NCBI GenBank assembly: GCA_903894155.1
Contig: CAITPF010000473.1
Coordinates: 1 to 35,963, forward strand
Reading direction: 5' to 3'
Source of the DNA: an uncultured beta proteobacterium
GTDB lineage: Bacteria > Pseudomonadota > Gammaproteobacteria > Burkholderiales > Burkholderiaceae_B
Length of the DNA: 35,963 nucleotides
Shown: positions 1-34,323 of the stretch, one piece after another
Numbering within the stretch: position 1 is the first letter of the stretch
How the letters are laid out: every line of letters begins with the position of its first letter
Notes under the pieces: model-generated
What the model was told of the DNA's origin: nothing
The model's database searches: none
The model's input: only the letters and a program-made list of their open reading frames with translations
Program-made: the position numbers and the translations under genes

Positions 1-112
1 ATGTCACATCGACAATGTCACATCGACAATGTCACATCGACAATGTCACATCGACAATGTCACATCGACAATGTCACATCGGCACGGTCACATCGGCACG
101 GTCACAACGGGG
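1..112. repeat. 14-bp tandem repeat array overlapping the 3' end of the rhodanese gene
   Basis: Five identical 14-bp units (ATGTCACATCGACA on the plus strand) fill 1-70. Two diverged units follow at 71-98 and a decaying copy at 99-112. The array is cut by the window edge, so its true length is unknown. On the minus strand each unit begins with TGA, and the first of these is the stop codon of the rhodanese gene, so its last codons are themselves repeat-derived. The most diverged units lie inside the gene and the identical ones outside, which suggests the array grew outward from the gene's tail. A plus-strand reading frame through the array gives a repetitive peptide that I regard as spurious. 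Confidence 0.95.
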
Positions 113-1062
113 CGATTTTCCAAGGTCCAGTAGTGCATCGAGCCGTCGTACAACTTCACATCCTTGTTGCCGACGATTTCATGGGCCATGAACCACGCGC
201 CCGAGGCGAGATGGCCGGTGTTGCAGTACGTGATGGCCGGTGCGGCCGGATCCACGCCAATTTGCTTGAGCAACGCCTCGTAGGTCGCCTTGCCCAGGAA
301 GTAAAGCGCGCCGTTGGAGGAGCGGGTCAGGATATCAGGGGCAAAATTCCTGGCACCGGCTACATGCCCGCCGGCCGTGATCGAGGCGCTTTTGACGATT
401 CCGAAATACTGAGGCGCCGGGCGCGCATCGATGAGCGCGGCTTTGCCTGACTTGGAGGCCTGGGCAACTTCATCGCCCGTTGCAACCAATGCGCTGTCAA
501 CGCCTTTGCCGACCCAGTTGCCTGCGGGTTTGGCCGCGGCTGCCGTGGTGACGGGCTTGCCGTCCGCAAGCCAGCCCGCGAGCCCGCCGTCGAGTACTGC
601 GATATTTTGCTCGCCATAGACTTTGAAGGACCACAGCACGCGCAGCGCCTCGTCGACATCCGATATGTCCTGGCCCAGCGGCACGAGCACGATCGGCTTG
701 CCGGCATTGACGCCGATGCCCTGCACGAGCTTTTCGAAATCGGCCATTTCCGGGATCAGGAATTTGACCTTGGCGGTGGCGATCGCCTTTTCAACGCGCG
801 CTTTCTTGAAATCAAAAAGCGAAGCGCCGGCCATGTGACCGCCGACCTCGGTGACGACCTTCTTGCCCGTCTTGGGATCGGTGGCGATTTCCGGTGCGCG
901 GGTAAAGACTGCGGTATCCCCGGTGACGACGACAACCTGAACGTCCGCGATATTCTGCGAGAGCCAATCGGCGCTGATGACCGGGCCCGGCAGATTGACG
1001 GCCTGGGCGATCGCGGCGAGCGCCGAGAACGCGATGGCGAGAAGGATACGGAAGTAGTTCAT
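88..1062 (-). CDS. Exported two-domain rhodanese (sulfurtransferase)
   Basis: A 324-residue thiosulfate/3-mercaptopyruvate-type sulfurtransferase, expected to move sulfane sulfur in the periplasm. Residues 1-21 form a Sec signal peptide ending in AIAQA. Two rhodanese domains follow (about 25-175 and 190-320). The C-terminal one carries the active-site loop CNTGHLA with the persulfide-forming Cys280. The equivalent loop of the N-terminal domain (about 125-140) has no cysteine, as is usual for the inactive half of tandem rhodaneses. The start overlaps the preceding gene by 4 bp (ATGA), so the two are translationally coupled. It is the last gene of the yeeE operon, which places it with sulfur-compound uptake. 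The natural acceptor cannot be told from sequence. The stop codon lies in the 14-bp repeat array. Confidence 0.9.
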   Translation of the reverse strand: MNYFRILLAIAFSALAAIAQAVNLPGPVISADWLSQNIADVQVVVVTGDTAVFTRAPEIATDPKTGKKVVTEVGGHMAGASLFDFKKARVEKAIATAKVKFLIPEMADFEKLVQGIGVNAGKPIVLVPLGQDISDVDEALRVLWSFKVYGEQNIAVLDGGLAGWLADGKPVTTAAAAKPAGNWVGKGVDSALVATGDEVAQASKSGKAALIDARPAPQYFGIVKSASITAGGHVAGARNFAPDILTRSSNGALYFLGKATYEALLKQIGVDPAAPAITYCNTGHLASGAWFMAHEIVGNKDVKLYDGSMHYWTLENRPVVTVPM

Positions 1063-1727
1063 GGGGCGACCTCTCTATCAGGTGAGCAGTGCTGGTTTAA
1101 CTTTTTTAACACGTTAATGCGACGCTGGCTGAGTACGCGCACGCGGCGATCTTGCTGCAGGATTTTCTTTGACTGGCCGGCGCTTGTGAGTTGGTCAAGC
1201 TTTTCGTCTCTCTGGCGCGCAAGCTCGGCGATTTCCATGCCGTAAAGCTGCATCAGCGCGGTCACCCAGCGCGCAATGGGCGCTGCACGGCCGTGCGCTT
1301 TAACGCTGAACTGCTGCGCAGCTTTCGCGACGGTGGCGGCCGGCGCCATGGCTTCTCCGGTCACCCAGGCGTTGGTGGTGAAGAGTTTGATCGGCAAACC
1401 CTTCGCATCAAGCGAGATTCCGATCACATGGAAGAACTTGTCGGCCTTGTTGGCATCCCGACGGAACACATGAAAGTGTCCGTGCTCGCCGGCGGACATC
1501 TCGTCGCGGGTATGCGCGTGGTAATAGAACTCGAAACCCGAATGTGCATCCGTGCAATCGTTCGCAGGGTAATGCGCCCATTCGACGAAATCTCGTGCGC
1601 CGCAGAGCGCGGCCTGACACAGGGGAGTGCCGCTGCTTGCATAGCTTGCCTGGACGGCCATTAACTGACGCGCGGCGGCGGTCATGGCCTGATCAGAGCG
1701 CGGCTTGGCGGGCAGCCGTGTGGGCAT
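1059..1727 (-). CDS. Conserved hypothetical protein with a His-rich core
   Basis: A 222-residue protein that I cannot assign to a named family with confidence. There is no signal peptide or membrane segment, so it is probably cytoplasmic. Its central part is unusually rich in histidine and aromatic residues: EWAHYP at 49-54, FYYHAH at 67-72 and EHGHFHVF at 81-88, with His100 further on. The spacing resembles a metal site or an all-beta cupin-like pocket, but that is inference. The C-terminal 50 residues are strongly basic and probably helical. It overlaps the rhodanese start by 4 bp and follows the NPC-repeat gene by 36 bp, so it belongs to the sulfur operon. No good ribosome-binding site precedes the chosen ATG. 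An internal ATG at 1685 is an alternative start. Confidence 0.8.
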   Translation of the reverse strand: MPTRLPAKPRSDQAMTAAARQLMAVQASYASSGTPLCQAALCGARDFVEWAHYPANDCTDAHSGFEFYYHAHTRDEMSAGEHGHFHVFRRDANKADKFFHVIGISLDAKGLPIKLFTTNAWVTGEAMAPAATVAKAAQQFSVKAHGRAAPIARWVTALMQLYGMEIAELARQRDEKLDQLTSAGQSKKILQQDRRVRVLSQRRINVLKKLNQHCSPDREVAP

Positions 1728-1763: not shown

Positions 1764-2045
1764 TCAATCGGCAGCCGGCTTTTTCTTCTTGGGGCCGCAA
1801 GGATTGCTCGGCCCGCAGGGGTTGGCGCCCTTGCGCTTGGCCGGTGCGCAGGGATTGGACGACTTGGCCTTGGTCGGCGCGCATGGATTGCTGCCTGCGT
1901 CCTTTTTCTGATCGCCAGCGGGTTGTTTTTGGTCCGCGCCTGCCTGGGTGCCGGGTGCGGCTGCATCAGCTGCGCGTGCCACGGGGGCTGCGACCAGACT
2001 GGCCATCGCGATAGCAAAGGAAGCGACTAGGGATTTCTTGGACAT
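1764..2045 (-). CDS. Small exported Cys-rich protein with four NPC(A/G)P motifs
   Basis: A 93-residue protein. Residues 1-25 are a clear signal peptide (KKS start, hydrophobic core, cleavage near ARA-AD). The mature part has an Ala/Gln/Asp-rich linker and then four NPC motifs at 53-55, 64-66, 75-77 and 81-83. Each is followed by Ala/Gly-Pro, and they are separated by Lys/Arg-rich spacers. The only cysteines are Cys55, 66, 77 and 83. GGAG six bases before the ATG supports the start. It lies 26 bp after the yeeE pair and 36 bp before the His-rich gene. A periplasmic metal- or sulfur-binding role fits the cysteines and the context, but no function is established here. I see no DUF692/MNIO-type modifying enzyme in the window that would make it a bufferin-like peptide. 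Confidence 0.82.
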   Translation of the reverse strand: MSKKSLVASFAIAMASLVAAPVARAADAAAPGTQAGADQKQPAGDQKKDAGSNPCAPTKAKSSNPCAPAKRKGANPCGPSNPCGPKKKKPAAD

Positions 2046-2071: not shown

Positions 2072-2674
2072 TTACGATTGGCTGGCGGTGGAGCCGTTGA
2101 CGGCTTGCTCGGCCGTGACAGGGCCGCAGGCGGAGTGCCTTTCCATATAGCCGCCCAGGATGTAGATGGCGACAGCGGCGGCGACCATGATGGCATTGAT
2201 CACCAGATCCGTCACGTGAAAGGCATCCGGGAGCGTATCGGCGCCGAGGTACTCACCGAGCACGGTGAGCGGTTCGACGGATGGAAAGACCCAGGCGAAG
2301 GCCCACGTGCCCAGCAGCAGGCCGACCAGAAAAATCGCGGCATCGAGCCTGCCGGACATCAACCCGACGACCGAGGTGCCCGGGCAGTAACCCCCAATGG
2401 CAAAGCCGGCTCCCACGAGCGCGCCGCCAAGGGCTGCCGCACCGAGGAACGCGGGCGGAACAAAGAGCTCGTCGGCGGCGACCAGACCCACCTTTTCAAG
2501 CACCATGAGGCCGACGGCGGCGAACACGATCGCCGTGAACATCACCTTGAACACGGACCAGTCGGTGAGCCGGAATTGCGCCGTCAGCTTGCCGGGGCTG
2601 CCGAACCCGGCGCGCTCCAGCGCGAAGCCGAAGCCCGCACCAAGGATGAGCCCTGAAATGATCATGTTGTTCAT
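2072..2674 (-). CDS. YeeE/YedE family sulfur transporter, C-terminal half-protein
   Basis: A 200-residue integral membrane protein of the YeeE/YedE (Sulf_transp, SoxT/TsuA-like) family, which imports thiosulfate or related sulfur compounds. The signature GGYCPGTSVVG holds the conserved Cys97 thought to relay thiosulfate by transient hydrogen bonding in TsuA. It has roughly five hydrophobic segments. The start MNNMIISG is chosen because its ATGA overlaps the stop of the upstream half-protein by 4 bp. A longer in-frame extension to 3280 reads through the other half in the wrong frame. The two half-proteins together are the size of one full-length YeeE, so they probably work as a heterodimer. 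The NPC-repeat gene starts 26 bp downstream. Confidence 0.9.
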   Translation of the reverse strand: MNNMIISGLILGAGFGFALERAGFGSPGKLTAQFRLTDWSVFKVMFTAIVFAAVGLMVLEKVGLVAADELFVPPAFLGAAALGGALVGAGFAIGGYCPGTSVVGLMSGRLDAAIFLVGLLLGTWAFAWVFPSVEPLTVLGEYLGADTLPDAFHVTDLVINAIMVAAAVAIYILGGYMERHSACGPVTAEQAVNGSTASQS

Positions 2675-3204
2675 GCCGACTCCCTGGTCTTGTAAATGCG
2701 GCTGACGACAAGGCCAGTGGCAAAGAATGTGCAAAGGAACACGAAGCCGGCCAGGCTGAGCGTGGCTGCGCCAGAGAGCCCGAGTCCGCTCGTGCAACCA
2801 GCGGCGACGCGCGCGCCGAAGCCGGCAAACACCCCGCCGATGAGCGCGGTGAAAGGACGGCGCGCGCCGCCGAGGAATTTTCCGCCATCCATCTGAATGC
2901 GGATTCGCCCGGCCAGCCAGGCGGAGACCAGCGCACCAATTGCCACGCCGATGACCTGCCAGGTGATCCATGAGTTGAGTGGGTGGCCGTCTTCGACCAT
3001 CCCGCCGAGGTACTCGTTGGCTTTGGTGGCCGCGGGCACGACTTCCAGTCCGATCCAGGCGGTCAGGCGCGTGGTGAAACCCGTGGCACCCAGCCCGTGC
3101 CCGGTGAAGACGAAGGTGGCCAGGAGCACAATGCCGAGCAGAATGCCGGCGGGCAGGGGTTGCCAGAAGGGTTTGGGGTGTTGAGGCGCTGGCTGGGATG
3201 ACAT
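2671..3204 (-). CDS. YeeE/YedE family sulfur transporter, N-terminal half-protein
   Basis: A 177-residue membrane protein, first gene of the minus-strand sulfur operon. It carries the YeeE/YedE signature ARVAAGCTSGLGLSG with Cys137. That matches the conserved cysteine loop of the family and is close to the ASGCSIGQGLTGLS loop of the full-length paralogue at 12793. About five hydrophobic stretches are visible. A strong purine-rich ribosome-binding site (GGAGGGAGAG) lies just before the ATG. It overlaps the second half by 4 bp. Split YeeE pairs are common next to sox and rhodanese genes, which supports a role in bringing sulfur substrates or sulfur intermediates across the inner membrane. The precise substrate is not determined by sequence. 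Confidence 0.9.
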   Translation of the reverse strand: MSSQPAPQHPKPFWQPLPAGILLGIVLLATFVFTGHGLGATGFTTRLTAWIGLEVVPAATKANEYLGGMVEDGHPLNSWITWQVIGVAIGALVSAWLAGRIRIQMDGGKFLGGARRPFTALIGGVFAGFGARVAAGCTSGLGLSGAATLSLAGFVFLCTFFATGLVVSRIYKTRESA

Positions 3205-3523
3205 GGTCTCTCCCTCCGTAAAATGAAATACGATTAACTAATAGATATAATATAGTATTGCATAATAAAACGTCATGCAAGACAAATCAGTTGAAACGGG
3301 TGGCGGACATCGTTTGCGGATTCGAGCCACCACGTAAGTCAAAGCCGTGGTCGCGGCAGCTCGTCATTCGGTCCCTGCACGTCGTCCGACCGCGTCAGGA
3401 ATCGCAAGCGATCTCCCGGATCGTTACACTGCGATTTCCGTCGCTGACCACCCAGAAGGGGCGTGTGCCAAGGCACGCATCCGTGATGCGAAGTTTCGCG
3501 ATTAATCCGTGACGCGGTGAACC
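3205..3523. promoter_or_regulatory. Gene-free divergent region between the sulfur operon and fahA
   Basis: This 319-bp stretch has no convincing gene. Its left third (about 3220-3285) is strikingly AT-rich against GC-rich surroundings and is the likely promoter of the minus-strand yeeE operon. It holds the inverted repeat TTGCAT-N11-ATGCAA (3258-3263 and 3275-3280). Read on the minus strand, the right arm TTGCAT is followed 17 bp later by TACTAT, a possible -35/-10 pair. The element ATATAAT-AT-AGTATT-G-CA (3245-3262) has a close match upstream of soxY. The rest (3290-3523) must contain the fahA promoter, but no strong hexamers stand out. Confidence 0.5.
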
Positions 3524-12504: not shown

Positions 12505-12792
12505 GTTTTTAATCAGGTGGATAGGTTAACTAAGGAAATCAGCATAAGCCCGAAGGCCGACTGGCTGAACGATAGATGGCGGCACCTCCTGGCCGCAAGG
12601 CAAAAGATCAACAAAGTGGCCGATTGGCCGCGCGCGAGCCGGGAATTCATTCGGCATTAAGAACAACGCAGGCTGTCGGTCTATTCCCATCTCCTTTGTA
12701 TGGTCAATGATGGCTAAATGCCTGGGGTGCGATGGCATTCAAGTGCGGTAAGATCGCCCGTTCCGAATCTTGGGAATCCTGCGGCTTTCACC
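12505..12792. promoter_or_regulatory. Divergent intergenic region between the TctC receptor and yeeE genes
   Basis: This 288-bp region should hold promoters for both divergent genes. A near-palindrome around TTAAC (TAGGTTAACTA) lies close to the receptor gene, of the loosely LysR/TTAAC type, but no regulator is encoded next to it. Short reading frames here look non-coding. Confidence 0.35.
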
Positions 12793-13869
12793 ATGGACAC
12801 TGTCGAACGCGTTCTCTGGTGCGCTCTTGCGGTCGGCATGGCCTTCGGGGTCATCGGCCACATGACAGGCTTTTGCCTGAACCGCGCCCTGCGGGATTAT
12901 CACGTCTACCGCAGCGACAGCAAATTGCGGTCGTTCCTGCTTGCGATGGGTGTCGCCGTGCTCGGCACGCAATGCGCTTCAATCCTTGGCCTGGTTGATC
13001 TGCAAAAGTCTATCTACGCCGTGCCGACGATTTCCTGGCTGCTGCTGCCGGTCGGCGCCGTGGTGTTCGGCTACGGGATGATTCTTGCCAATGGCTGTGG
13101 CGCGCGGGCACTGGTCATGCTGGGGCAGGGAAACCTCCGGTCCCTGTGGGTGCTGCTGTGCATGGGCATTTCGGCTTTCGTGACGCTGACGGGCGTAATC
13201 GCGCCGCTGCGCATGACAGTGGCGTCGGCCACCCCGATGGTCAACCACAACCTTGCCAGCCTCTCGCCCTCGGCAAGGATCATGGCGGTGGCGATCGTCG
13301 GCGTGCTGCTGCTTGGTTTTGCCTTTTGGCGTGGCAGGTTGCTCAACAGCAAACGGGATCTTGCCGGCGGTTTGATCATTGGGTTGCTGATTGTTGCCGG
13401 CTGGCTGGCGACGGGCTGGATCGGGGACGACGAGTTTGATCCTGTCCCCGTGGCGTCGCTGAGCTTTGTCTCGCCGGTTGGCGAAACAATTCAGTACGCC
13501 ATGATCTCGACCGGGCTGACCTTGCGCTTCGGTATCGTCGCCGTCGTGGGCGTCTATTTCGGTTCACTCCTCATATCGGTGCTGCGCCGACAATTCCATT
13601 TGCACGGTTTCACGGCGGCGCCCGATATGCTGCGCTATATGACGGGCGGCGTCATGATGGGCGTGGGCGGTGCGCTTGCTTCGGGATGCTCGATCGGGCA
13701 GGGGCTCACGGGCCTGTCGACCCTTTCACTGGGTTCATTCATCGCGACGGTCGGAATCTTCTCCGGCGGCTGGCTTGCGCTTGTGCTGACAACGCCGTCT
13801 ATGGTCGCCGACTCCAGTGGCAATGCCGGCGATCCGACGAAAGACGCCACGCCCGCGGGGTGCGGTTAG
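12793..13869 (+). CDS. Full-length YeeE/YedE family transporter
   Basis: A 358-residue multi-spanning membrane protein with both YeeE/YedE repeats in one chain, unlike the split pair at 2072-3204. Conserved cysteine loops are GFCLNRALRD (Cys28), ANGCGARALV (Cys102) and ASGCSIGQGLTGLS (Cys299). They match the cysteine-relay arrangement described for the thiosulfate importer TsuA. I start at the ATG at 12793 because it begins directly with the first membrane segment. An earlier in-frame start at 12718 would add 25 non-conserved residues. The neighbouring genes are not obviously sulfur-related, so this may be a second transporter with a different substrate or import direction. No SirA/TusA-like partner gene follows. 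Confidence 0.9.
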   Translation: MDTVERVLWCALAVGMAFGVIGHMTGFCLNRALRDYHVYRSDSKLRSFLLAMGVAVLGTQCASILGLVDLQKSIYAVPTISWLLLPVGAVVFGYGMILANGCGARALVMLGQGNLRSLWVLLCMGISAFVTLTGVIAPLRMTVASATPMVNHNLASLSPSARIMAVAIVGVLLLGFAFWRGRLLNSKRDLAGGLIIGLLIVAGWLATGWIGDDEFDPVPVASLSFVSPVGETIQYAMISTGLTLRFGIVAVVGVYFGSLLISVLRRQFHLHGFTAAPDMLRYMTGGVMMGVGGALASGCSIGQGLTGLSTLSLGSFIATVGIFSGGWLALVLTTPSMVADSSGNAGDPTKDATPAGCG

Positions 13870-16909: not shown

Positions 16910-16999
16910 TGCGGTATGCGGTATGCGGTACGCGGTACGCGGTACGCGGTATGCGGTATGCGGTATGCGGTATGCGATACGGTACGGTACGGTACGGAT
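16910..16999. repeat. 7-bp tandem array with a 5-bp tail between divergent promoters
   Basis: Ten heptamers of the type (T/C)GCGGTA fill 16910-16979: three with T, three with C, three with T and a tenth reading TGCGATA. Three 5-bp CGGTA units follow at 16980-16994 and then CGGAT. The array lies 78 bp before the DadA-like start and about 40-60 bp before the hyuA start, so it occupies the shared promoter space. The units contain no stop codon in any frame, which is why long spurious frames run across it. Copy-number change would alter promoter spacing. Confidence 0.93.
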
Positions 17000-27621: not shown

Positions 27622-28983
27622 ATGACATCCAGGAATCGCCAACCGGGCCAGCTTGTTCGGGCACCCGAGAATTATGTGCCAGCAATGCTCGCACGGGAAA
27701 TCGACGCGGGCGGGATGAATGACGAGCGTCGTACCTTCTTGCGCAAGAGTTTTCTTGGCGCGCTGGGGGCATCGGCCGGACTGGCGCTGGCGCAGGCTGC
27801 GCGCGCGGCGCCGCCGTCCGGGGATCCTGCAATCCTCGAAAAGCAACCCTGGCAGACGAGCCTTGGGCACCCCGTGGCTGCGATCGGGTATGGGGTTCCG
27901 TCCAAGTACGAGGCGAACCTGCAGCGGCGCGAATCCCCGGGGCTCACGCGCGTATCGGCCGCCTCGGTAGCCTTTACGCCGCTGCAGGGATTGTTCGGGA
28001 TCATTACCCCGAGCGGGCTGCATTTCGAGCGCCACCACCAGGGTTGGGTGGATATCGATCCCAACAAGCACCGCCTCATGATCAACGGGCTCGTCGCCCA
28101 GCCGCGCGTCTACACGATGAACGACCTGATGCGCCTGCCTTCGGTTTCCCGGATTCATTTCATCGAGTGCGGCGCCAACACGGGGATCGAATGGGGCAAC
28201 GTTGCTGTGCCCACGGTGCAGTACACCCACGGCATGCTGTCGTGCTGCGAATTTACCGGGGTGCCGCTCGCGCTGTTGCTTGACGACTGCGGGGTCGATC
28301 TCAAGGCCGGCAAGTATGTGCTCGCCGAAGGCGGAGAAGGCTCTGGGATGACGCGCACGATCCCGATGGAAAACGCGCTGGACGACGCGCTTGTTGTCTG
28401 GGGCATGAACGGCGAAATGCTGCGCCCGGAGAACGGCTATCCCCTGCGGCTTGTGGTGCCAGGCGTGCAGGGCGTGAGTTCTGTGAAGTGGTTGCGCCGG
28501 CTTGAGGTCGGCGACGAACCGTACGCATCGAAGGACGAGGCCGTGCATTACATCGACCTCATGCCCGATGGCCAGCACCGGCAGTACACCTCGATCCAGG
28601 AGTGCAAATCCGTCATTACGACCCCCTCGGGCGGCCAGCAGCTGCTCGACAAAGGCTTTTATAACGTCAGTGGGATGGCGTGGTCGGGTCGCGGCAAGGT
28701 TGCGCGCGTGGATGTTTCGTTCGACGGCGGCAAGCGCTGGCGCGCAGCGAGGCTGGAGTCGCCTATCCTGTCCAAGGCCGTCACCCGCTTCAATATCGAT
28801 TGGGATTGGGACGGCGCCCCGGCGATCCTCCAGTCGCGTGCCGTGGACGAAACGGGCTATGTCCAGCCTTCGATCCGCGTCCTGCGCGAAGTGCGCGGCA
28901 CGCGTTCGATTTATCACAACAACGCAATCCAGTCGTGGAAGGTCGATGCCAACGGGGAGGTGAGCAATGTGCAGGTTGGCTAA
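27622..28983 (+). CDS. soxC: Sulfane dehydrogenase molybdoprotein SoxC
   Basis: A 453-residue molybdopterin subunit of the periplasmic Sox(CD)2 sulfane dehydrogenase, which oxidises the sulfane sulfur bound to SoxY. A Tat-type signal with ERRTFLRKS (35-43) sits after an unusually long 34-residue leader. The molybdenum-ligand Cys183 is in HFIECGANTGIEW. The oxidoreductase Mo-binding domain is followed by the Mo-co dimerisation domain (about 300-440). The ATG at 27622 is chosen because CAGGAG lies upstream. The ATG at 27718 would still keep the Tat motif. It overlaps soxD by 17 bp. Presence of soxCD predicts complete thiosulfate oxidation to sulfate without sulfur globules. Confidence 0.93.
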   Translation: MTSRNRQPGQLVRAPENYVPAMLAREIDAGGMNDERRTFLRKSFLGALGASAGLALAQAARAAPPSGDPAILEKQPWQTSLGHPVAAIGYGVPSKYEANLQRRESPGLTRVSAASVAFTPLQGLFGIITPSGLHFERHHQGWVDIDPNKHRLMINGLVAQPRVYTMNDLMRLPSVSRIHFIECGANTGIEWGNVAVPTVQYTHGMLSCCEFTGVPLALLLDDCGVDLKAGKYVLAEGGEGSGMTRTIPMENALDDALVVWGMNGEMLRPENGYPLRLVVPGVQGVSSVKWLRRLEVGDEPYASKDEAVHYIDLMPDGQHRQYTSIQECKSVITTPSGGQQLLDKGFYNVSGMAWSGRGKVARVDVSFDGGKRWRAARLESPILSKAVTRFNIDWDWDGAPAILQSRAVDETGYVQPSIRVLREVRGTRSIYHNNAIQSWKVDANGEVSNVQVG

Positions 28984-30112
28984 GCGACTCCGACGCTCGT
29001 TCGCTTTGGTCGGTCTGGCATTCTGGTCGTCAACCGCACCCGCGCAGACCCAACATCCTGGCGCCCTGGCGTTTGCCGGGGCTCCCGCGCAGCTTTCCAG
29101 TGTGACTTCAACCGTCCCTGGAAAGTTCGCCGGCATCGGGCGCGCCGCGACCGAGGAGGAGGTGAGGGCGTGGGATATCGACGTGCGGCCGGACTTCAAG
29201 GGATTGCCCAAGGGCTCAGGAACCGTGGCGCACGGCCAGGAAATCTGGGAGGCCAAATGCGCCAGCTGTCACGGAACGTTTGGCGAATCGAATGAGGTCT
29301 TCACGCCGATCGCGGGCGGCACGACCGCGGACGACATCAGGACGGGGCGCGTGGCTTCCCTGGTCGACACCAAGCAGCCGCAGCGCACGACCCTGATGAA
29401 GGTCGCCACGTTGTCATCCCTCTTTGATTACATCCAGCGCGCCATGCCCTGGAATTCGCCCAGATCCCTGACGCCCGACGAGACTTACGCAGTGCTGGCC
29501 TATATCCTGAGCCTGGCGGAAATCGTCGATGACGACTTCACGATGAGCGACCGGAACATCGCAGCTGTCCAGCAGCGGATGCCCAACCGCAATGGCATGA
29601 CGGTGGATCATGGTCTCTGGAATGCGCGGGGGAGCCCCGATGTCAAAGCCCTGGCGTGCATGGAGAATTGCGCTGATTCCATTGCAATCGTGTCGTTTTT
29701 GCCGGACTACGCGCGCAATGCGCACGGAAATCTCGCCGAGCAGAACCGGATTTTCGGCCCCTATCGCGGGTCGGACACGACAGCGCCTCGTCTGGCGGCG
29801 TTGCCGGGGCTGGAATACGGTTCGGCGAGCGCGATGGTCGCTGCACCCACTTCCGCGCAAGCACTTGCACTGGATTTGTTTAGGAAGAACAATTGCAACG
29901 CCTGCCATTCGCCCACGGGTAAACTCGTCGGTCCGGCGCTTGCGGAGATCGCCCGCAAATACAAAGGGCAGCCCGAGGCGATTGACAATCTGGTGAAGAA
30001 AGTACGGCAGGGCGGTTCGGGCGTTTGGGGCGTGATTCCAATGCCAACACACGATCATGTGCCAGAAGACGATGTGAAAACGATCGTCACCTGGGTTGTC
30101 ATGAGCCATTGA
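28967..30112 (+). CDS. soxD: Diheme cytochrome SoxD
   Basis: A 381-residue periplasmic c-type cytochrome, electron-accepting subunit of SoxCD. A signal peptide covers residues 1-27 (ends TAPAQ). Two heme-binding sites are visible: CASCH at 98-102 and CNACH at 310-314. The length and the two-heme layout match known SoxD. An additional pair, Cys231 and Cys235, lies between the hemes and could form a disulfide. The start overlaps the soxC end by 17 bp, so the two subunits are made together. Six electrons from sulfane sulfur oxidation would pass through it to a soluble cytochrome c. Confidence 0.93.
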   Translation: MCRLAKRLRRSFALVGLAFWSSTAPAQTQHPGALAFAGAPAQLSSVTSTVPGKFAGIGRAATEEEVRAWDIDVRPDFKGLPKGSGTVAHGQEIWEAKCASCHGTFGESNEVFTPIAGGTTADDIRTGRVASLVDTKQPQRTTLMKVATLSSLFDYIQRAMPWNSPRSLTPDETYAVLAYILSLAEIVDDDFTMSDRNIAAVQQRMPNRNGMTVDHGLWNARGSPDVKALACMENCADSIAIVSFLPDYARNAHGNLAEQNRIFGPYRGSDTTAPRLAALPGLEYGSASAMVAAPTSAQALALDLFRKNNCNACHSPTGKLVGPALAEIARKYKGQPEAIDNLVKKVRQGGSGVWGVIPMPTHDHVPEDDVKTIVTWVVMSH

Positions 30113-30169
30113 GCCCGGGCCGTTTGCCTGCTCAATATAATTTCAGTATTTCACGACAAGGGAGACACG
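30113..30169 (+). promoter_or_regulatory. soxD-soxY gap with an AT-rich element
   Basis: This 57-bp gap contains a consensus -10-like TATAAT at 30136-30141 and the element ATATAAT-TTC-AGTATT-T-CA (30135-30153), closely similar to 3245-3262 upstream of the other sulfur operon. No good -35 is placed 17 bp upstream, so an activator-dependent internal promoter or operator for soxYZAXB is only a possibility. AAGGGAG before the ATG is the soxY ribosome-binding site. Confidence 0.4.
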
Positions 30170-30622
30170 ATGAACTCGAAACGACGCAAGGTGCTGCAGT
30201 TCACGGCACTCGTCTCGTTCATGGCGGGTTCAGGCCTGCTGAGCGAGGCCGACGCTGCTGAATGGAACAAGGCCGCGTTCGCAGCCAAGTCCATGGACGA
30301 TGTGATGAAGGCACTGGGCGGCGGCGCGCCCGAAAAATCCGACGCGGTGACGCTCAAGGCACCGGATATCGCCGAAAACGGGGCCGTGGTCCCGGTGGGC
30401 ATTACCACCACGCTCAAGGCGACCAGCATGGCGATCCTGGTCGAAAAGAATCCGAACATGCTCGCAGGCTATTTCGACTTGCCCGCGGGGACGGAGCCCT
30501 TCGTCACGACGCGGGTGAAGATGGGGCAGACGTCCAATGTTTATGCGCTGGTGAAAGCCGACGGAAAGTGGTTCAGCGCCTTCAAGGAAATCAAGGTCAC
30601 GCTCGGCGGGTGTGGCGGCTGA
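30170..30622 (+). CDS. soxY: Sulfur carrier subunit SoxY
   Basis: A 150-residue protein whose C-terminus GGCGG carries Cys148, the residue that holds the sulfur intermediates as a cysteine-S-conjugate. Residues 1-30 are an export signal with a Tat-like KRRKVLQF start. The Tat route fits co-export of SoxYZ, since SoxZ has no signal. The C-terminal swinging arm and the length are normal. SoxY is loaded by SoxAX, hydrolysed by SoxB and oxidised by SoxCD, all encoded here. It is 58 bp upstream of soxZ. Confidence 0.95.
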   Translation: MNSKRRKVLQFTALVSFMAGSGLLSEADAAEWNKAAFAAKSMDDVMKALGGGAPEKSDAVTLKAPDIAENGAVVPVGITTTLKATSMAILVEKNPNMLAGYFDLPAGTEPFVTTRVKMGQTSNVYALVKADGKWFSAFKEIKVTLGGCGG

Positions 30623-30680
30623 TCGCCTTTAGCCAGCCCAACGGCGCTCCTTAACGACTCATACGACACGAGAGACACTC

Positions 30681-30992
30681 ATGGCAGATCCAATGCGCAT
30701 TCGCGCGACCGAAAAAGACGGCGAAATCGACGTCAAGGTGCTCATGAAGCACGACATGGAATCCGGGCAGCGCAAAGACGCGGCCGGTGCGATCATCCCC
30801 GCATGGCATATCACCAACCTGGTTGCCACAGTTAACGGCAAACAGGTCTTCGCGGCGCAGTTTGGCCCGGCGATTTCCAAGGACCCCTTCCTGAACTTCA
30901 AGTTCAAGGGCGCCGCCAAGGGCGACGAAGTCGTCGTGTCCTGGGAGGACAACAAGGGCGACAAGCGCACGGACAAGGGCAAGATCTCCTGA
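30681..30992 (+). CDS. soxZ: Sulfur carrier subunit SoxZ
   Basis: A 103-residue immunoglobulin-like protein with no signal peptide, partner of SoxY. It starts MADPMRIRATEKDGEIDVKVLMKHDMESG, the typical SoxZ opening, and contains the W-H-I-T-N segment (PAWHITNLVATVNGK) and SWEDNKGDK near the end. It would be exported as a SoxYZ complex on the SoxY signal. Neither size nor sequence shows a defect. soxA follows after 40 bp. Confidence 0.95.
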   Translation: MADPMRIRATEKDGEIDVKVLMKHDMESGQRKDAAGAIIPAWHITNLVATVNGKQVFAAQFGPAISKDPFLNFKFKGAAKGDEVVVSWEDNKGDKRTDKGKIS

Positions 30993-31032
30993 TCGCCCCG
31001 CTAAACGCTACGACAAGTCCGGGAGGGACAGC

Positions 31033-31833
31033 ATGAGTAATTCTTTGATCGCCTGGGCGGCGGCGGCCCTGGTGGCTGCCCCGGTATGGGTCGGCGCGCA
31101 GAGCGCGAGCGATGAGATCGCCAGGTATCGCGAGATGCTTGCCGAGGGCAATCCGTCGGAACTCTACGAGGCCGCAGGCGAAGAGCTCTGGGTCAAGCCT
31201 TCCGGGCCATTGCAGGCCACGCTTGAAAAATGCGACCTGGGCTTGGGGCCCGGCGTGGTGGACGGCGCTGCGGCGCAGTTGCCGCGCTATTTCGCCGACA
31301 CCGAGCGGGTGCAGGATCTGGAGTCGCGGTTGATGACCTGCATGGAAAAGCTGCAGGGCATCCCCTCGGCGCAGGTCGTCAAGGAGTCCTTCGGCAAGGG
31401 TGTGCGCAAGGACATCGAGGCGATCGTCGCCTACGTCGTCACGCATTCCAAGGGCATGAAGGTCAACGTACCTGCCACGCATCCCAGGGAAAAGGAGATG
31501 GTCGCGCTGGGCGAGAAGCTCTTTTATTTCGAGGGTGGCCCGATGGACTTCTCGTGCGCCTCGTGTCATTCCGAGGACAAGAAGCGTATCCGTCTGCAGG
31601 ATCTTCCCAACATTACAAAGCCACAGGGCGCGGCCGACGGTTGGGGTTCGTGGCCGGCGTATCGCGTGTCGAGCGGCGAGTTCTGGACCATGCAGCGCCG
31701 CCTCAACGACTGCCTGCGTCAGCAACGCATGCCGTTCCCGATCTATGCCTCGGATGTGACCATCGCACTGTCGATGTACATGGCGGCGAAAGCCAATGGC
31801 GGGGAAATCACGACCCCTGGCCTGAAACGATAG
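31033..31833 (+). CDS. soxA: Cytochrome SoxA, single-heme type
   Basis: A 266-residue periplasmic c-type cytochrome, catalytic subunit of SoxAX, which joins thiosulfate to SoxY Cys148 oxidatively. The signal peptide is residues 1-22 (ends GAQ). There is one heme motif, CASCH at 175-179. The region where diheme SoxA carries a second heme has instead Cys67 and Cys103, probably a disulfide. Cys227 in RLNDCLRQQRMP is the active-site cysteine that becomes the heme ligand or persulfide. A GGAGGGA ribosome-binding site precedes the ATG. It is the single-heme SoxA class, which pairs with SoxX proteins carrying an N-terminal extension. Confidence 0.94.
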   Translation: MSNSLIAWAAAALVAAPVWVGAQSASDEIARYREMLAEGNPSELYEAAGEELWVKPSGPLQATLEKCDLGLGPGVVDGAAAQLPRYFADTERVQDLESRLMTCMEKLQGIPSAQVVKESFGKGVRKDIEAIVAYVVTHSKGMKVNVPATHPREKEMVALGEKLFYFEGGPMDFSCASCHSEDKKRIRLQDLPNITKPQGAADGWGSWPAYRVSSGEFWTMQRRLNDCLRQQRMPFPIYASDVTIALSMYMAAKANGGEITTPGLKR

Positions 31834-31852
31834 CAGTGCGGAGCAGACCATC

Positions 31853-32476
31853 ATGACCATGACCAGAATTCTCGAGTCCGCCTTCTTATCCTGTGCGCTT
31901 TTGTGCGCTGGCCTCGCCACGGCCCAAACCCCGGATCCGGCGCTGCAGGCTGTGCTTTCGAGCAGCTTTCGCGCCGAAGGGATTGCGGGCCTTGACCGGA
32001 TCAACCAGGACCCGATCCAGGCGCTTTGCTCGGATCCGTCGATGAAATCCAGCCCGCAGGGGCAGGCAAAAATGGAGGCGTTGCAGAAGGCGAGCCTGGC
32101 GGAAATCAAGCCCCCGACGGATGGGAAGTACCTGGGCGACTGGAAGCGCGGCGAGGCGCTGGCGCAAAACGGACGCGGCGCGACCTGGTCCGACGCTGCG
32201 GGTTCAGCCAATGGAGGCAGCTGCTACAACTGCCACCAGATCGATCCGAAGGAAATCTCGTTTGGCAATATCGGGCCATCGCTCACGGGCTATGGCAAGA
32301 CGCGCGGGGCCGCGCAGCCGATGCTCGAGTACACGTGGAACCGTATCAGTAACTCGAAGGCCTTCAACGCGTGCAGCAACATGCCGCGCTTCGCGCACTT
32401 CGGATTGCTGACCGAGCAACAGATCAGGGACGTCATGGCGCTTTTGCTGGATCCCGCGTCGCCAGTCAATCAGTAG
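31853..32476 (+). CDS. soxX: Cytochrome SoxX
   Basis: A 207-residue monoheme c-type cytochrome, electron-accepting subunit of SoxAX. The signal peptide is residues 1-24. A helical N-terminal extension of about 65 residues precedes the cytochrome domain with CYNCH at 124-128. Met177 in CSNMPRF is the likely axial ligand. The extension matches the larger SoxX class found with single-heme SoxA. MTMT gives two possible starts, two codons apart. The stop codon lies in the first unit of a 7-bp tandem array, so the array appears to have been seeded at the end of this gene. Confidence 0.93.
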   Translation: MTMTRILESAFLSCALLCAGLATAQTPDPALQAVLSSSFRAEGIAGLDRINQDPIQALCSDPSMKSSPQGQAKMEALQKASLAEIKPPTDGKYLGDWKRGEALAQNGRGATWSDAAGSANGGSCYNCHQIDPKEISFGNIGPSLTGYGKTRGAAQPMLEYTWNRISNSKAFNACSNMPRFAHFGLLTEQQIRDVMALLLDPASPVNQ

Positions 32477-32568
32477 CCAGTAACGAGTAACGAGTAACCA
32501 GTAACCAGTAACGAGTAACGAGTAACACGTAACGAGTAACCAGTAGCCAGTAACCAGTAACCAGTAAC
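32471..32568. repeat. 7-bp tandem array between soxX and soxB
   Basis: Fourteen heptamers without interruption (98 bp). Most read CAGTAAC or GAGTAAC, two read CAGTAGC and one ACGTAAC. The first unit contains the soxX stop codon. Almost every unit has TAA or TAG, and because seven is not a multiple of three the stops fall in all three plus-strand frames in turn. On the minus strand it encodes a hydrophobic heptapeptide repeat (LLVTGYS type) that I consider spurious. It fills nearly all of the soxX-soxB gap, leaving only 12 bases before the soxB ATG. Confidence 0.95.
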
Positions 32569-32580
32569 CGCGTATTTTGG

Positions 32581-34323
32581 ATGCACCGCACTATGTCGAT
32601 CAGTCGCCGGGAGTTTCTGCAGGTATTGGCCATTGCTGCCGCGGGCGGCATGGCGCTTCGCGCCGATGGCGCATCGGCACAGGCCGCGGCTGACCGGTTC
32701 TACGATCTGCCGCGGTTTGGCAACGTTCACCTGCTGCACTTCACCGATTGCCATGCGCAGATCAAGCCGGTCTATTTCCGCGAACCCAGCGTAAATCTCG
32801 GTTTTGGCGGGCAGTTCGGCAAACCGCCACACCTGGTCGGCGAGCATCTGCTCAGGCATTTTGGCATTGCGCCCGGGTCTAGGGATGCGCACGCGTTCAC
32901 GTTTCTGGATTTCGAGAGCGCGGCGCGCCAGTACGGCAAGGTCGGCGGCTTCGCGCAGCTGGCGACGCTGATCAAGCGGCTCAAGGCTGACAGGCCGGGC
33001 GCCTTGCTGCTTGACGGCGGCGACACCTGGCAGGGGTCGGGCACAGCGCTCTGGACGCGTGGCCAGGACATGGTGGATGTTTGTCTTGCGCTTGGCGTGG
33101 ACGTCATGACCGCGCATTGGGAAATGACGCTCGGGCAGGATCGCGTCAAGGAGATCGTCGAGAAGGATTTCGACGGCAAGGTCGCGTTCCTTGCCCAGAA
33201 CATCAAGACAGCCGATTTCGGCGATCCGGTGTTCGAGGCCTATTCGATCCGGGAACTCAACGGCGTGCCGGTCGCAATCATCGGTCAGGCGTTTCCATAC
33301 ACGCCGATCGCCAACCCGCGGTACATGATTCCGGATTGGACGTTCGGCATCGACGAAGAGAACCTGCAGAAGGTGGTCGAGGAGGCGCGCGGCAAAGGCG
33401 CCCAGGCGGTGGTGCTGCTTTCGCACAACGGGATGGATGTGGATCTGAAGCTCGCGAGCCGCGTGCGTGGCATCGACGTCATCCTGGGCGGCCATACGCA
33501 CGATGGCGTGCCCGCACCGACCCGCGTGGAAAATGCGGGAGGCGTCACGCTGGTGACCAATGCGGGTTCCAACGGCAAATACCTGGCTGTGCTGGATCTG
33601 GATGTGCGCGCAGGCAAAGTTCAGGACGTGCGCTACAAACTGATGCCGGTGTTCTCGGATCTGTTGCCTGCGGATGCCGACATGGCCTCGCTGATCGCCA
33701 GAGTTCGCGCGCCGTACGAGGCCAGGCTTTCCGAGCCACTGGCGGTTACGCAAGGGCTGCTCTACCGCCGGGGCAACTTCAATGGCAGCTTCGATCAGCT
33801 GATCCTCGAGGGGCTCATGCACATGAAGGATGCGCCGATCGCGTTCTCGCCCGGTTTTCGCTGGGGCACGACGCTGCTGCCGGGCCAGACGGTCACGATG
33901 GAGCACTTGCTGGACCAGACCGCCATCACGTATCCCTACACGACCGTCACACCCATGACCGGGGAGACGATCAAGACGATTCTCGAGGATGTGGCGGACA
34001 ACCTTTTCAATCCCGATCCGTATTACCAGCAGGGTGGCGATATGGTCCGCGTCGGGGGCCTGCAGTACGCGATCGACCCGACGGCATCCGCAGGCAACCG
34101 GATTTCCGACATGCGGCTTGGCGGCAAGCCGATCGATGCGGTCGCGACCTACAAAGTCGCGGGCTGGGCGCCGGTCTCGCAAGAGGCCAAGGAGGCTGGC
34201 GGCGAACCGATCTGGGATTTGATGAGCCGCTACCTGAAGGAAATCAAGACGATTGCGCCGCGTGCGCCCAATCTTCCGCAGATCAAGGGTGCGTCCGGCA
34301 ATCCGGGCTATGCTTCCTCGTGA
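32581..34323 (+). CDS. soxB: Thiosulfohydrolase SoxB
   Basis: A 580-residue periplasmic dimanganese hydrolase of the 5'-nucleotidase superfamily that releases sulfate from SoxY-S-sulfonate. A Tat signal is clear: SISRREFLQV at 6-15, with cleavage near ASAQA. Metal-site motifs are DCHAQ (56-60), DGGDTWQG (145-152), SHNGMD (281-286) and GGHTHDG (303-309). The C-terminal 5'-nucleotidase domain includes FNGSFDQLILEG and PMTGETIKTILED. Length is normal. Neither the ATG at 32581 nor that at 32593 has a strong ribosome-binding site, and the upstream space is taken by the heptamer array, so soxB may be translated less efficiently than its neighbours. Confidence 0.95.
   Translation: MHRTMSISRREFLQVLAIAAAGGMALRADGASAQAAADRFYDLPRFGNVHLLHFTDCHAQIKPVYFREPSVNLGFGGQFGKPPHLVGEHLLRHFGIAPGSRDAHAFTFLDFESAARQYGKVGGFAQLATLIKRLKADRPGALLLDGGDTWQGSGTALWTRGQDMVDVCLALGVDVMTAHWEMTLGQDRVKEIVEKDFDGKVAFLAQNIKTADFGDPVFEAYSIRELNGVPVAIIGQAFPYTPIANPRYMIPDWTFGIDEENLQKVVEEARGKGAQAVVLLSHNGMDVDLKLASRVRGIDVILGGHTHDGVPAPTRVENAGGVTLVTNAGSNGKYLAVLDLDVRAGKVQDVRYKLMPVFSDLLPADADMASLIARVRAPYEARLSEPLAVTQGLLYRRGNFNGSFDQLILEGLMHMKDAPIAFSPGFRWGTTLLPGQTVTMEHLLDQTAITYPYTTVTPMTGETIKTILEDVADNLFNPDPYYQQGGDMVRVGGLQYAIDPTASAGNRISDMRLGGKPIDAVATYKVAGWAPVSQEAKEAGGEPIWDLMSRYLKEIKTIAPRAPNLPQIKGASGNPGYASS

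Follow-up and report, generated by a model that had tools for sequence, protein, structure and literature searches.

DUF6969 proteins are paired with exported cysteine-repeat peptides within and beyond a sulfur-transport-type operon

What might be the role of a small exported protein whose only cysteines lie in four short repeats? Such a peptide is encoded in the window analysed here, a 35,963-nucleotide stretch of DNA from an uncultured beta proteobacterium (contig CAITPF010000473.1). A sequence-only reading had described it as carrying just four cysteines, each within an NPC(A/G)P motif and spaced by lysine-rich linkers, and translation bears this out. The cysteines, exactly four in number, are at positions 55, 66, 77 and 83, in motifs that follow each other in the order NPCAP, NPCAP, NPCGP and NPCGP, and the linkers between them are rich in lysine. 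The amino-terminus is Sec-like, as judged by eye on the translation. Searches of Pfam, NCBIfam and PADLOC gave no match to a known family.

The peptide is under purifying selection, with a dN/dS of about 0.05. Homologues are present in six of 61 relatives, these being its own genome and five others of the same genus, and the peptide of one congener is 86% identical to that of the window. Comparison of the window gene with its nearest relative gives a pS of 0.66, a pN of 0.07 and a dN/dS of 0.05; in seven other gene pairs, dN/dS is 0.04–0.05 in four and 0.30 in one very close pair, and two are saturated at synonymous sites. The cysteines are conserved: the four columns contain cysteine in 19/20, 20/20, 20/20 and 20/20 aligned peptides, with codons varying between TGC and TGT, while in 23 diverse homologues two of the cysteines are invariant, two are conserved to at least 90% and the linkers are variable. 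A chance open reading frame or artefact is ruled out by the homologues, the cysteine conservation and the purifying selection.

Read leftwards, the genes around the peptide come in the order pmpA-like, pmpB-like, peptide, DUF6969 and rhodanese (Table 1), and the junctions calculated from their coordinates are a 4-nt overlap, 26 nt, 36 nt and a further 4-nt overlap. Since neighbouring genes overlap or are almost contiguous, the five appear to form a single operon read leftwards. The peptide had been placed between a split YeeE/YedE transporter and a rhodanese; the transporter side of this description holds, but on the rhodanese side the DUF6969 gene intervenes. Each YeeE half matches a different half of the Sulf_transp profile, and in this the pair resembles PmpA and PmpB, short YeeE halves that relate to opposite halves of full-length YeeE (PMC11582611); the available part of that article makes no mention of an NPC peptide or of DUF6969 as a partner of PmpA/PmpB. 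Pfam assignments reveal no copper genes among the five.

Table 1. Features of the window and NPC-repeat cytochromes at other loci.
Feature	Location	Strand	Basis and remarks
Rhodanese-domain protein, exported (signal peptide by eye)	window 88..1062	(-)	PF00581 64.4 bits; Cys in active-site loop CNTGHLAS
DUF6969 protein (PF22308)	window 1059..1727	(-)	Pfam 194.1 bits vs cut-off 27, profile 2-201 of 201
Exported 93-aa peptide, NPC(A/G)P motif present four times; candidate substrate of DUF6969	window 1764..2045	(-)	translation, homologue alignment, selection
YeeE/YedE half, PmpB-like	window 2072..2674	(-)	Sulf_transp PF04143 50.5 bits, profile 1-149 of 310 (N-terminal half)
YeeE/YedE half, PmpA-like	window 2671..3204	(-)	Sulf_transp PF04143 73.1 bits, profile 176-308 of 310 (C-terminal half)
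Sigma-70-like promoter candidate upstream of operon	window 3247..3276	(-)	consensus match only
sox thiosulfate-oxidation cluster, same contig (soxC, cytochrome, soxA, soxX, soxB)	window 27622..34323	(+)	NCBIfam SoxC, SoxA, SoxX, SoxB over cut-off
NPC-repeat cytochrome, SoxA/TsdA-type	L031 1395-2018		domain tested; thioredoxin-like gene near
NPC-repeat cytochrome, SoxA/TsdA-type	L032 6565-7311		domain tested
NPC-repeat cytochrome, SoxA/TsdA-type	L148 1803-2345		domain tested; thioredoxin-like gene near (by eye)
NPC-repeat cytochrome, SoxA/TsdA-type	L028 10408-11109		by eye
Cytochrome P460-like, long NPC repeats	L095 4222-4992	opposite strand near DUF6969	29.5 bits, cut-off 27
Cytochrome P460-like, long NPC repeats	L118 44-1186	opposite strand near DUF6969	28.5 bits, cut-off 27

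Named genomes were scanned with a DUF6969 alignment and the best 80 loci of 571 relatives were taken, a sample biased towards relatives of the window. All five genes occur together at 43 of these 80 loci, in agreement with the proposed linkage of the peptide to YeeE and rhodanese; 42 of the 43 were flagged by the search, and L070, whose peptide the motif rule had missed, was added by reading. Hosts of the operon among the best 80 loci of 571 include Polynucleobacter, Sheuella, Ramlibacter, Polaromonas, Tibeticola, Rhodocyclaceae, Gallionellaceae and Acidocella, the last having the rhodanese in first place. YeeE genes are absent from L069, at a contig end, and L084 and L107 consist of DUF6969 and a rhodanese piece only. 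Acidocella isolate RAIPT19 (L088, L107) has two DUF6969 genes, one of them in a five-gene operon and the other, without a peptide, adjoining the rhodanese piece at a contig end.

A link to the sox genes had been anticipated as well, and it is real without being strict. In a sample of 300 genomes of the order, SoxB scores over cut-off in all seven genomes with an NPC(A/G)P peptide (G000, G100, G112, G137, G143, G218 and G259) versus 140 of the 300 (Fisher p 0.004, a statistic that ignores kinship), and coordinates place it on the same contig, at most 31 kb from the peptide, in five of the seven. At G100, peptide and DUF6969 are present with no YeeE or rhodanese flagged nearby. Among 30 named genomes bearing the five-gene type of locus, SoxB is over cut-off in 24 and below it in six, including Sheuella amnicola. 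Together, the 24/30 and 7/7 counts make sox the usual setting of the operon and no requirement. In Polynucleobacter (L051), soxY is near the operon, which is adjoined by an ArsR-type regulator whose closest model is BigR (109 bits, cut-off 155).

The pairing of DUF6969 with a Cys-repeat peptide is a broader rule than the five-gene operon. In the order sample, 20 of the 300 genomes have DUF6969, with 21 loci in all; 20 of these loci encode an exported Cys-repeat peptide within 1.4 kb of the Pfam match, 17 of them within 300 bp. At one of the 20 paired loci, L047, DUF6969 is present only as a fragment, located at a contig end; the unpaired one, in G167, has Cys-repeat peptides on another contig. 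A sample of the phylum gave DUF6969 in 20 of 398 genomes, again at 21 loci, three of which were already in the order count; of the 18 further loci, 11 have a Cys-repeat peptide beside DUF6969 on the same strand and seven have none. The motifs of the adjacent peptides range over NPCGP, NPCAAK, KCAPK, PCVKTKAG(G), KC.. repeats, CGAAC and CCAAEGC, and ten other DUF6969-associated peptides gave nothing over cut-off in Pfam. At L186, L187 and L188, in three genomes of one family, the exported peptides beside DUF6969 are rich in alanine and glutamate (CAAC, CCAAEGC) and unlike the NPC repeats.

The association is also seen from the peptide side and with a fixed definition of the peptide. Two peptide profiles matched 19 of the 300 genomes, 14 of which have DUF6969, versus 20 of 300 overall (Fisher p 1e-15, again ignoring kinship). 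The five without DUF6969 are G073, G216, G123, G301 and G318, the last three being weak matches to profile A5, and no NPC peptide was found in the stretches of those weak matches (L170-L172). When the peptide was defined as an exported ORF with at least four cysteines in 60 amino acids, on the same strand and within 500 bp, one was found at 15 of 19 order loci versus 19 in 185 kb of more remote flanking sequence, and at 43 of the 80 named loci (best 80 of 571 relatives) versus 52 ORFs in 676 kb. Two of the latter 43, L084 and L107, are false hits to a larger protein; conversely, the definition missed L057, L064 and L097, which carry a motif peptide.

A tree of DUF6969 was calculated from 117 of 118 loci (L039 has a split match only, and the fragment L047 was not entered), reduced to 96 proteins by removal of near-copies. 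By reading, 68 of the 96 were labelled as accompanied by a peptide, 25 as orphans and three as having a peptide on the opposite strand. Peptide-linked DUF6969 proteins occur to either side of the midpoint root, distributed over several distinct groups, with the rooting uncertain and several branches long. Four groups contain orphans only, the Azospirillum group being the largest. The peptide label changes six times over the tree, versus 24.6 times when shuffled. The co-occurrence statistics all ignore phylogeny, but the recurrence of the pairing in different contexts and parts of the tree speaks against mere joint inheritance of a single operon.

DUF6969 is not always accompanied. At 34 of the 80 named loci (best 80 of 571 relatives) there is no YeeE or rhodanese gene with it; an NPC-type protein is encoded on the opposite strand at three of the 34, and none was flagged at the other 31. 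Profiles A5 (12 genomes) and A6 (19 genomes), which are of low complexity and may miss divergent peptides, detected no peptide at other places in genomes whose DUF6969 is an orphan. In Azospirillum brasilense (L096, 4458-8687), the orphan DUF6969 gene comes directly after genes for an ABC transporter, MlaD and a transport-auxiliary lipoprotein, and is convergent with a sigma-70-family gene. The reverse case is G216: both a peptide and a cytochrome of the NPC type are encoded there, but neither DUF6969 nor MNIO was found in the genome, suggesting that a maturase is not always needed or that another exists.

The DUF6969 protein of the window has no signal peptide that could be seen by eye. In 15 diverse members of the family, His52, Asp57, Asp60, His70, His72, His84, His86 and His100 are invariant. 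A 44-sequence alignment (the window protein and 43 others from the best 80 loci of 571 relatives; 47 were tried and four dropped) leaves Asp60, His70, His72, His84, His86 and His100 invariant, with His52 and Asp57 conserved to at least 90%. The AlphaFold2 model has a pLDDT of 88.8; in it, three successive predicted strands bear His70/His72, His84/His86 and His100, either within the strand or at its end, an arrangement in which the conserved histidines may form one metal site. With this model, Foldseek returned nothing at E <= 0.001 from the PDB or BFVD. A profile search for sequence relatives in the PDB gave a best E of 0.2, which is not credible, and a remote relationship to MNIO found no support (hhalign probability 0.2% against a single-sequence template; PF05114 unmatched). 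Our literature search found no paper on DUF6969 or PF22308, and no relevant one on repeat motifs of the NPC and CAPK types.

MNIO enzymes act mostly on cysteines of precursors, many of which have Sec signal peptides, according to the available text of PMC12452194. No MNIO (PF05114) was found in the genome of the window, with a search that matched two of 14 control genomes, nor in any of the six further genomes of the order sample that encode an NPC(A/G)P peptide. NPC proteins do occur beside MNIO elsewhere. In G073, which has no DUF6969, an NPCAAK peptide directly precedes DUF2282 (88.8 bits), MNIO (344.5 bits), DUF2063 (81 bits) and DoxX (67 bits). In G150 (L205, C16:135500-149000), DUF2282 (87.7 bits), MNIO, DUF2063 and DoxX are followed by a cytochrome that carries NPCAA and has a SoxA/TsdA-type domain; 5.7 kb beyond the cytochrome come DUF6969 and the NPCAA peptide paired with it, the bufferin-type cluster and this pair lying within about 10 kb. 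Of the 20 genomes with DUF6969 in the order sample, seven also encode MNIO somewhere, and it could act there too. Sigma-70-family (ECF-like) factors are near three DUF6969 or NPC loci (L044, L046 and L137). The NPC-repeat cytochromes of the SoxA/TsdA type are often located beside an NPCAA-type peptide.

Several known systems offer points of comparison. Metallothionein-like proteins are marked by CxC or CxxC clusters, of which the window peptide has none. SoxYZ, with its GGCGG arm, is a periplasmic cysteine carrier of sulfur intermediates; the carrier role that we propose below would be similar and belongs to the same sulfur metabolism, but the window peptide has no NCBIfam match and presents four cysteines in NPC(A/G)P. 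The closest resemblance in general plan is to the bufferins (Buf1/DUF2282 and Buf2, with MNIO and DUF2063), whose precursors have Sec signals and whose products chelate excess copper (PMC12452194, available text). Shared with them are a small cysteine-containing precursor and, encoded beside it, a dedicated partner that could bind metal; the start of the window peptide also looks, by eye, like a Sec signal. Unlike in bufferins, the partner here, DUF6969, shows no profile relationship to MNIO, the window genome is without MNIO, the peptide has no Pfam match to DUF2282 (PF10048, the Buf1 feature) and the operon is of the sulfur-transport type. Buf2 is marked by a Buf_6/12_Cys signature, and the cysteines of the window peptide number four. 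As both the MNIO and the DUF2282 features were looked for and are missing, the system may work like the bufferins but is no member of them; it is an exported Cys-peptide system resembling bufferins with an unrelated, uncharacterised partner. The EGKCG/captophorin precursors of metallophores (5-thiooxazole) are likewise built of short repeats with one cysteine each (PMC12668002, available text), differing in that the motif here is NPC(A/G)P and that MNIO is lacking from the window genome. In the main text of PMC12452194 and PMC12668002 no word begins with NPC.

Our preferred reading, held tentatively and rated somewhat below an even chance, is that the peptide is modified or loaded by DUF6969, exported, and acts with the rhodanese and PmpAB as a carrier or buffer of sulfane sulfur. 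The peptide would be made in the cytoplasm as a Sec precursor, where the DUF6969 protein encoded next to it, a multi-histidine and presumably metal-dependent protein, would modify or load its repeated cysteines before export. Sec would then deliver the modified peptide to the periplasm, and together with the exported rhodanese and the PmpAB importer it might form a flexible thiol carrier or buffer with several sites for sulfane sulfur, chiefly in organisms that oxidise thiosulfate. Four points of this reading are inferences: an enzymatic role for DUF6969, the cysteines as its target, its action ahead of export, and sulfane sulfur as the cargo. The peptide had been proposed as a binding scaffold for a thiophilic metal or sulfane sulfur, or as the substrate of a modifying enzyme. 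The last of these options is now the best supported, because DUF6969, which had gone unmentioned, is the most constant partner of the peptide across contexts. The peptide motifs vary and their DUF6969 partner stays the same, as expected if cysteine in a simple context is the target. Counting against this reading are the orphan DUF6969 genes of Azospirillum and others, G216 with its NPC proteins but neither enzyme, and the six of 30 genomes in which SoxB is below cut-off. Since NPC proteins are found near MNIO/bufferin clusters and MNIO is missing from the window genome, DUF6969 may be the counterpart of MNIO for these peptides. For the more general proposal, that DUF6969 is a second, MNIO-independent class of maturase with a new fold and a multi-histidine metal site, serving Cys-repeat peptides and NPC cytochromes across Pseudomonadota, one branch of which was recruited to the sulfane-sulfur import operon of thiosulfate oxidisers, we consider the arguments evenly balanced.

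The periplasmic cargo of the mature peptide would be sulfane sulfur or, alternatively, a soft metal; the partners in the operon favour sulfane sulfur, in line with the SoxB enrichment and the NPC repeats on SoxA/TsdA-type cytochromes elsewhere. The product of DUF6969 maturation might instead be a periplasmic buffer for copper or another soft metal, with the sulfur genes explained by thiophilic-metal stress of sulfur oxidisers or by co-handling of thiosulfate and metal. Such a function is that of the bufferins, themselves made as Sec-signal precursors; NPC proteins adjoin two bufferin-type clusters, and the sigma factors near L044, L046 and L137 are of a kind frequent in bufferin clusters (PMC12452194, available text). 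Against these parallels stand the absence of copper genes from the five-gene operon, its fixed partners, which are of the sulfur type, and the regulator at L051, nearest to BigR albeit at 109 bits for a cut-off of 155. We regard a metal buffer as the main rival, though a rather unlikely one.

The cysteines may also remain unmodified. DUF6969 would then bind the nascent peptide, or load it with metal, in the role of a cytoplasmic metallochaperone, holding factor or regulator, and the peptide would be a plain thiol scaffold. The six conserved histidines could merely bind metal, no enzyme fold is recognised in DUF6969, and the NPC proteins of G216 do without both DUF6969 and MNIO. However, the retention of DUF6969 across very different peptides and the presence of NPC proteins in MNIO neighbourhoods point to covalent modification of cysteine; we rate this explanation as rather unlikely. 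A much more improbable account treats the pairing as a by-product of the operon, with DUF6969 serving the transporter or another process, possibly as in Azospirillum, and the peptide acting as an independent periplasmic thiol protein. Orphan DUF6969 genes beside other genes fit such an account; it conflicts with a pairing that recurs in many distinct groups of the DUF6969 tree and in at least three gene contexts (with PmpAB and rhodanese, with an NPC cytochrome and, in the absence of both, with a KCAPK-type peptide).

These observations offer a testable role for the Pfam family DUF6969 and for unannotated small Cys-repeat proteins. If DUF6969 modifies cysteine, it would constitute a new class of maturase beside MNIO, probably with new chemistry. 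If the preferred reading, a carrier or buffer of sulfane sulfur, is correct for the sox-linked operon, the peptide would be an overlooked component of the movement or storage of periplasmic sulfane sulfur in sulfur oxidisers.

The window contains some further features outside this argument. A second YeeE/YedE-like protein, full-length with 383 amino acids (12718-13869, Sulf_transp 187 bits), is encoded separately from the split pair. A 14-bp tandem unit (ATGTCACATCGACA, 7.6 copies) occupies positions 1-106, at the end of the window and contig, and reaches the last rhodanese codons. Two arrays with 7-bp units are also present, one of TGCGGTA at 16910-16976 and the other of CCAGTAA, in 15 copies at 32462-32569, between soxX and soxB.
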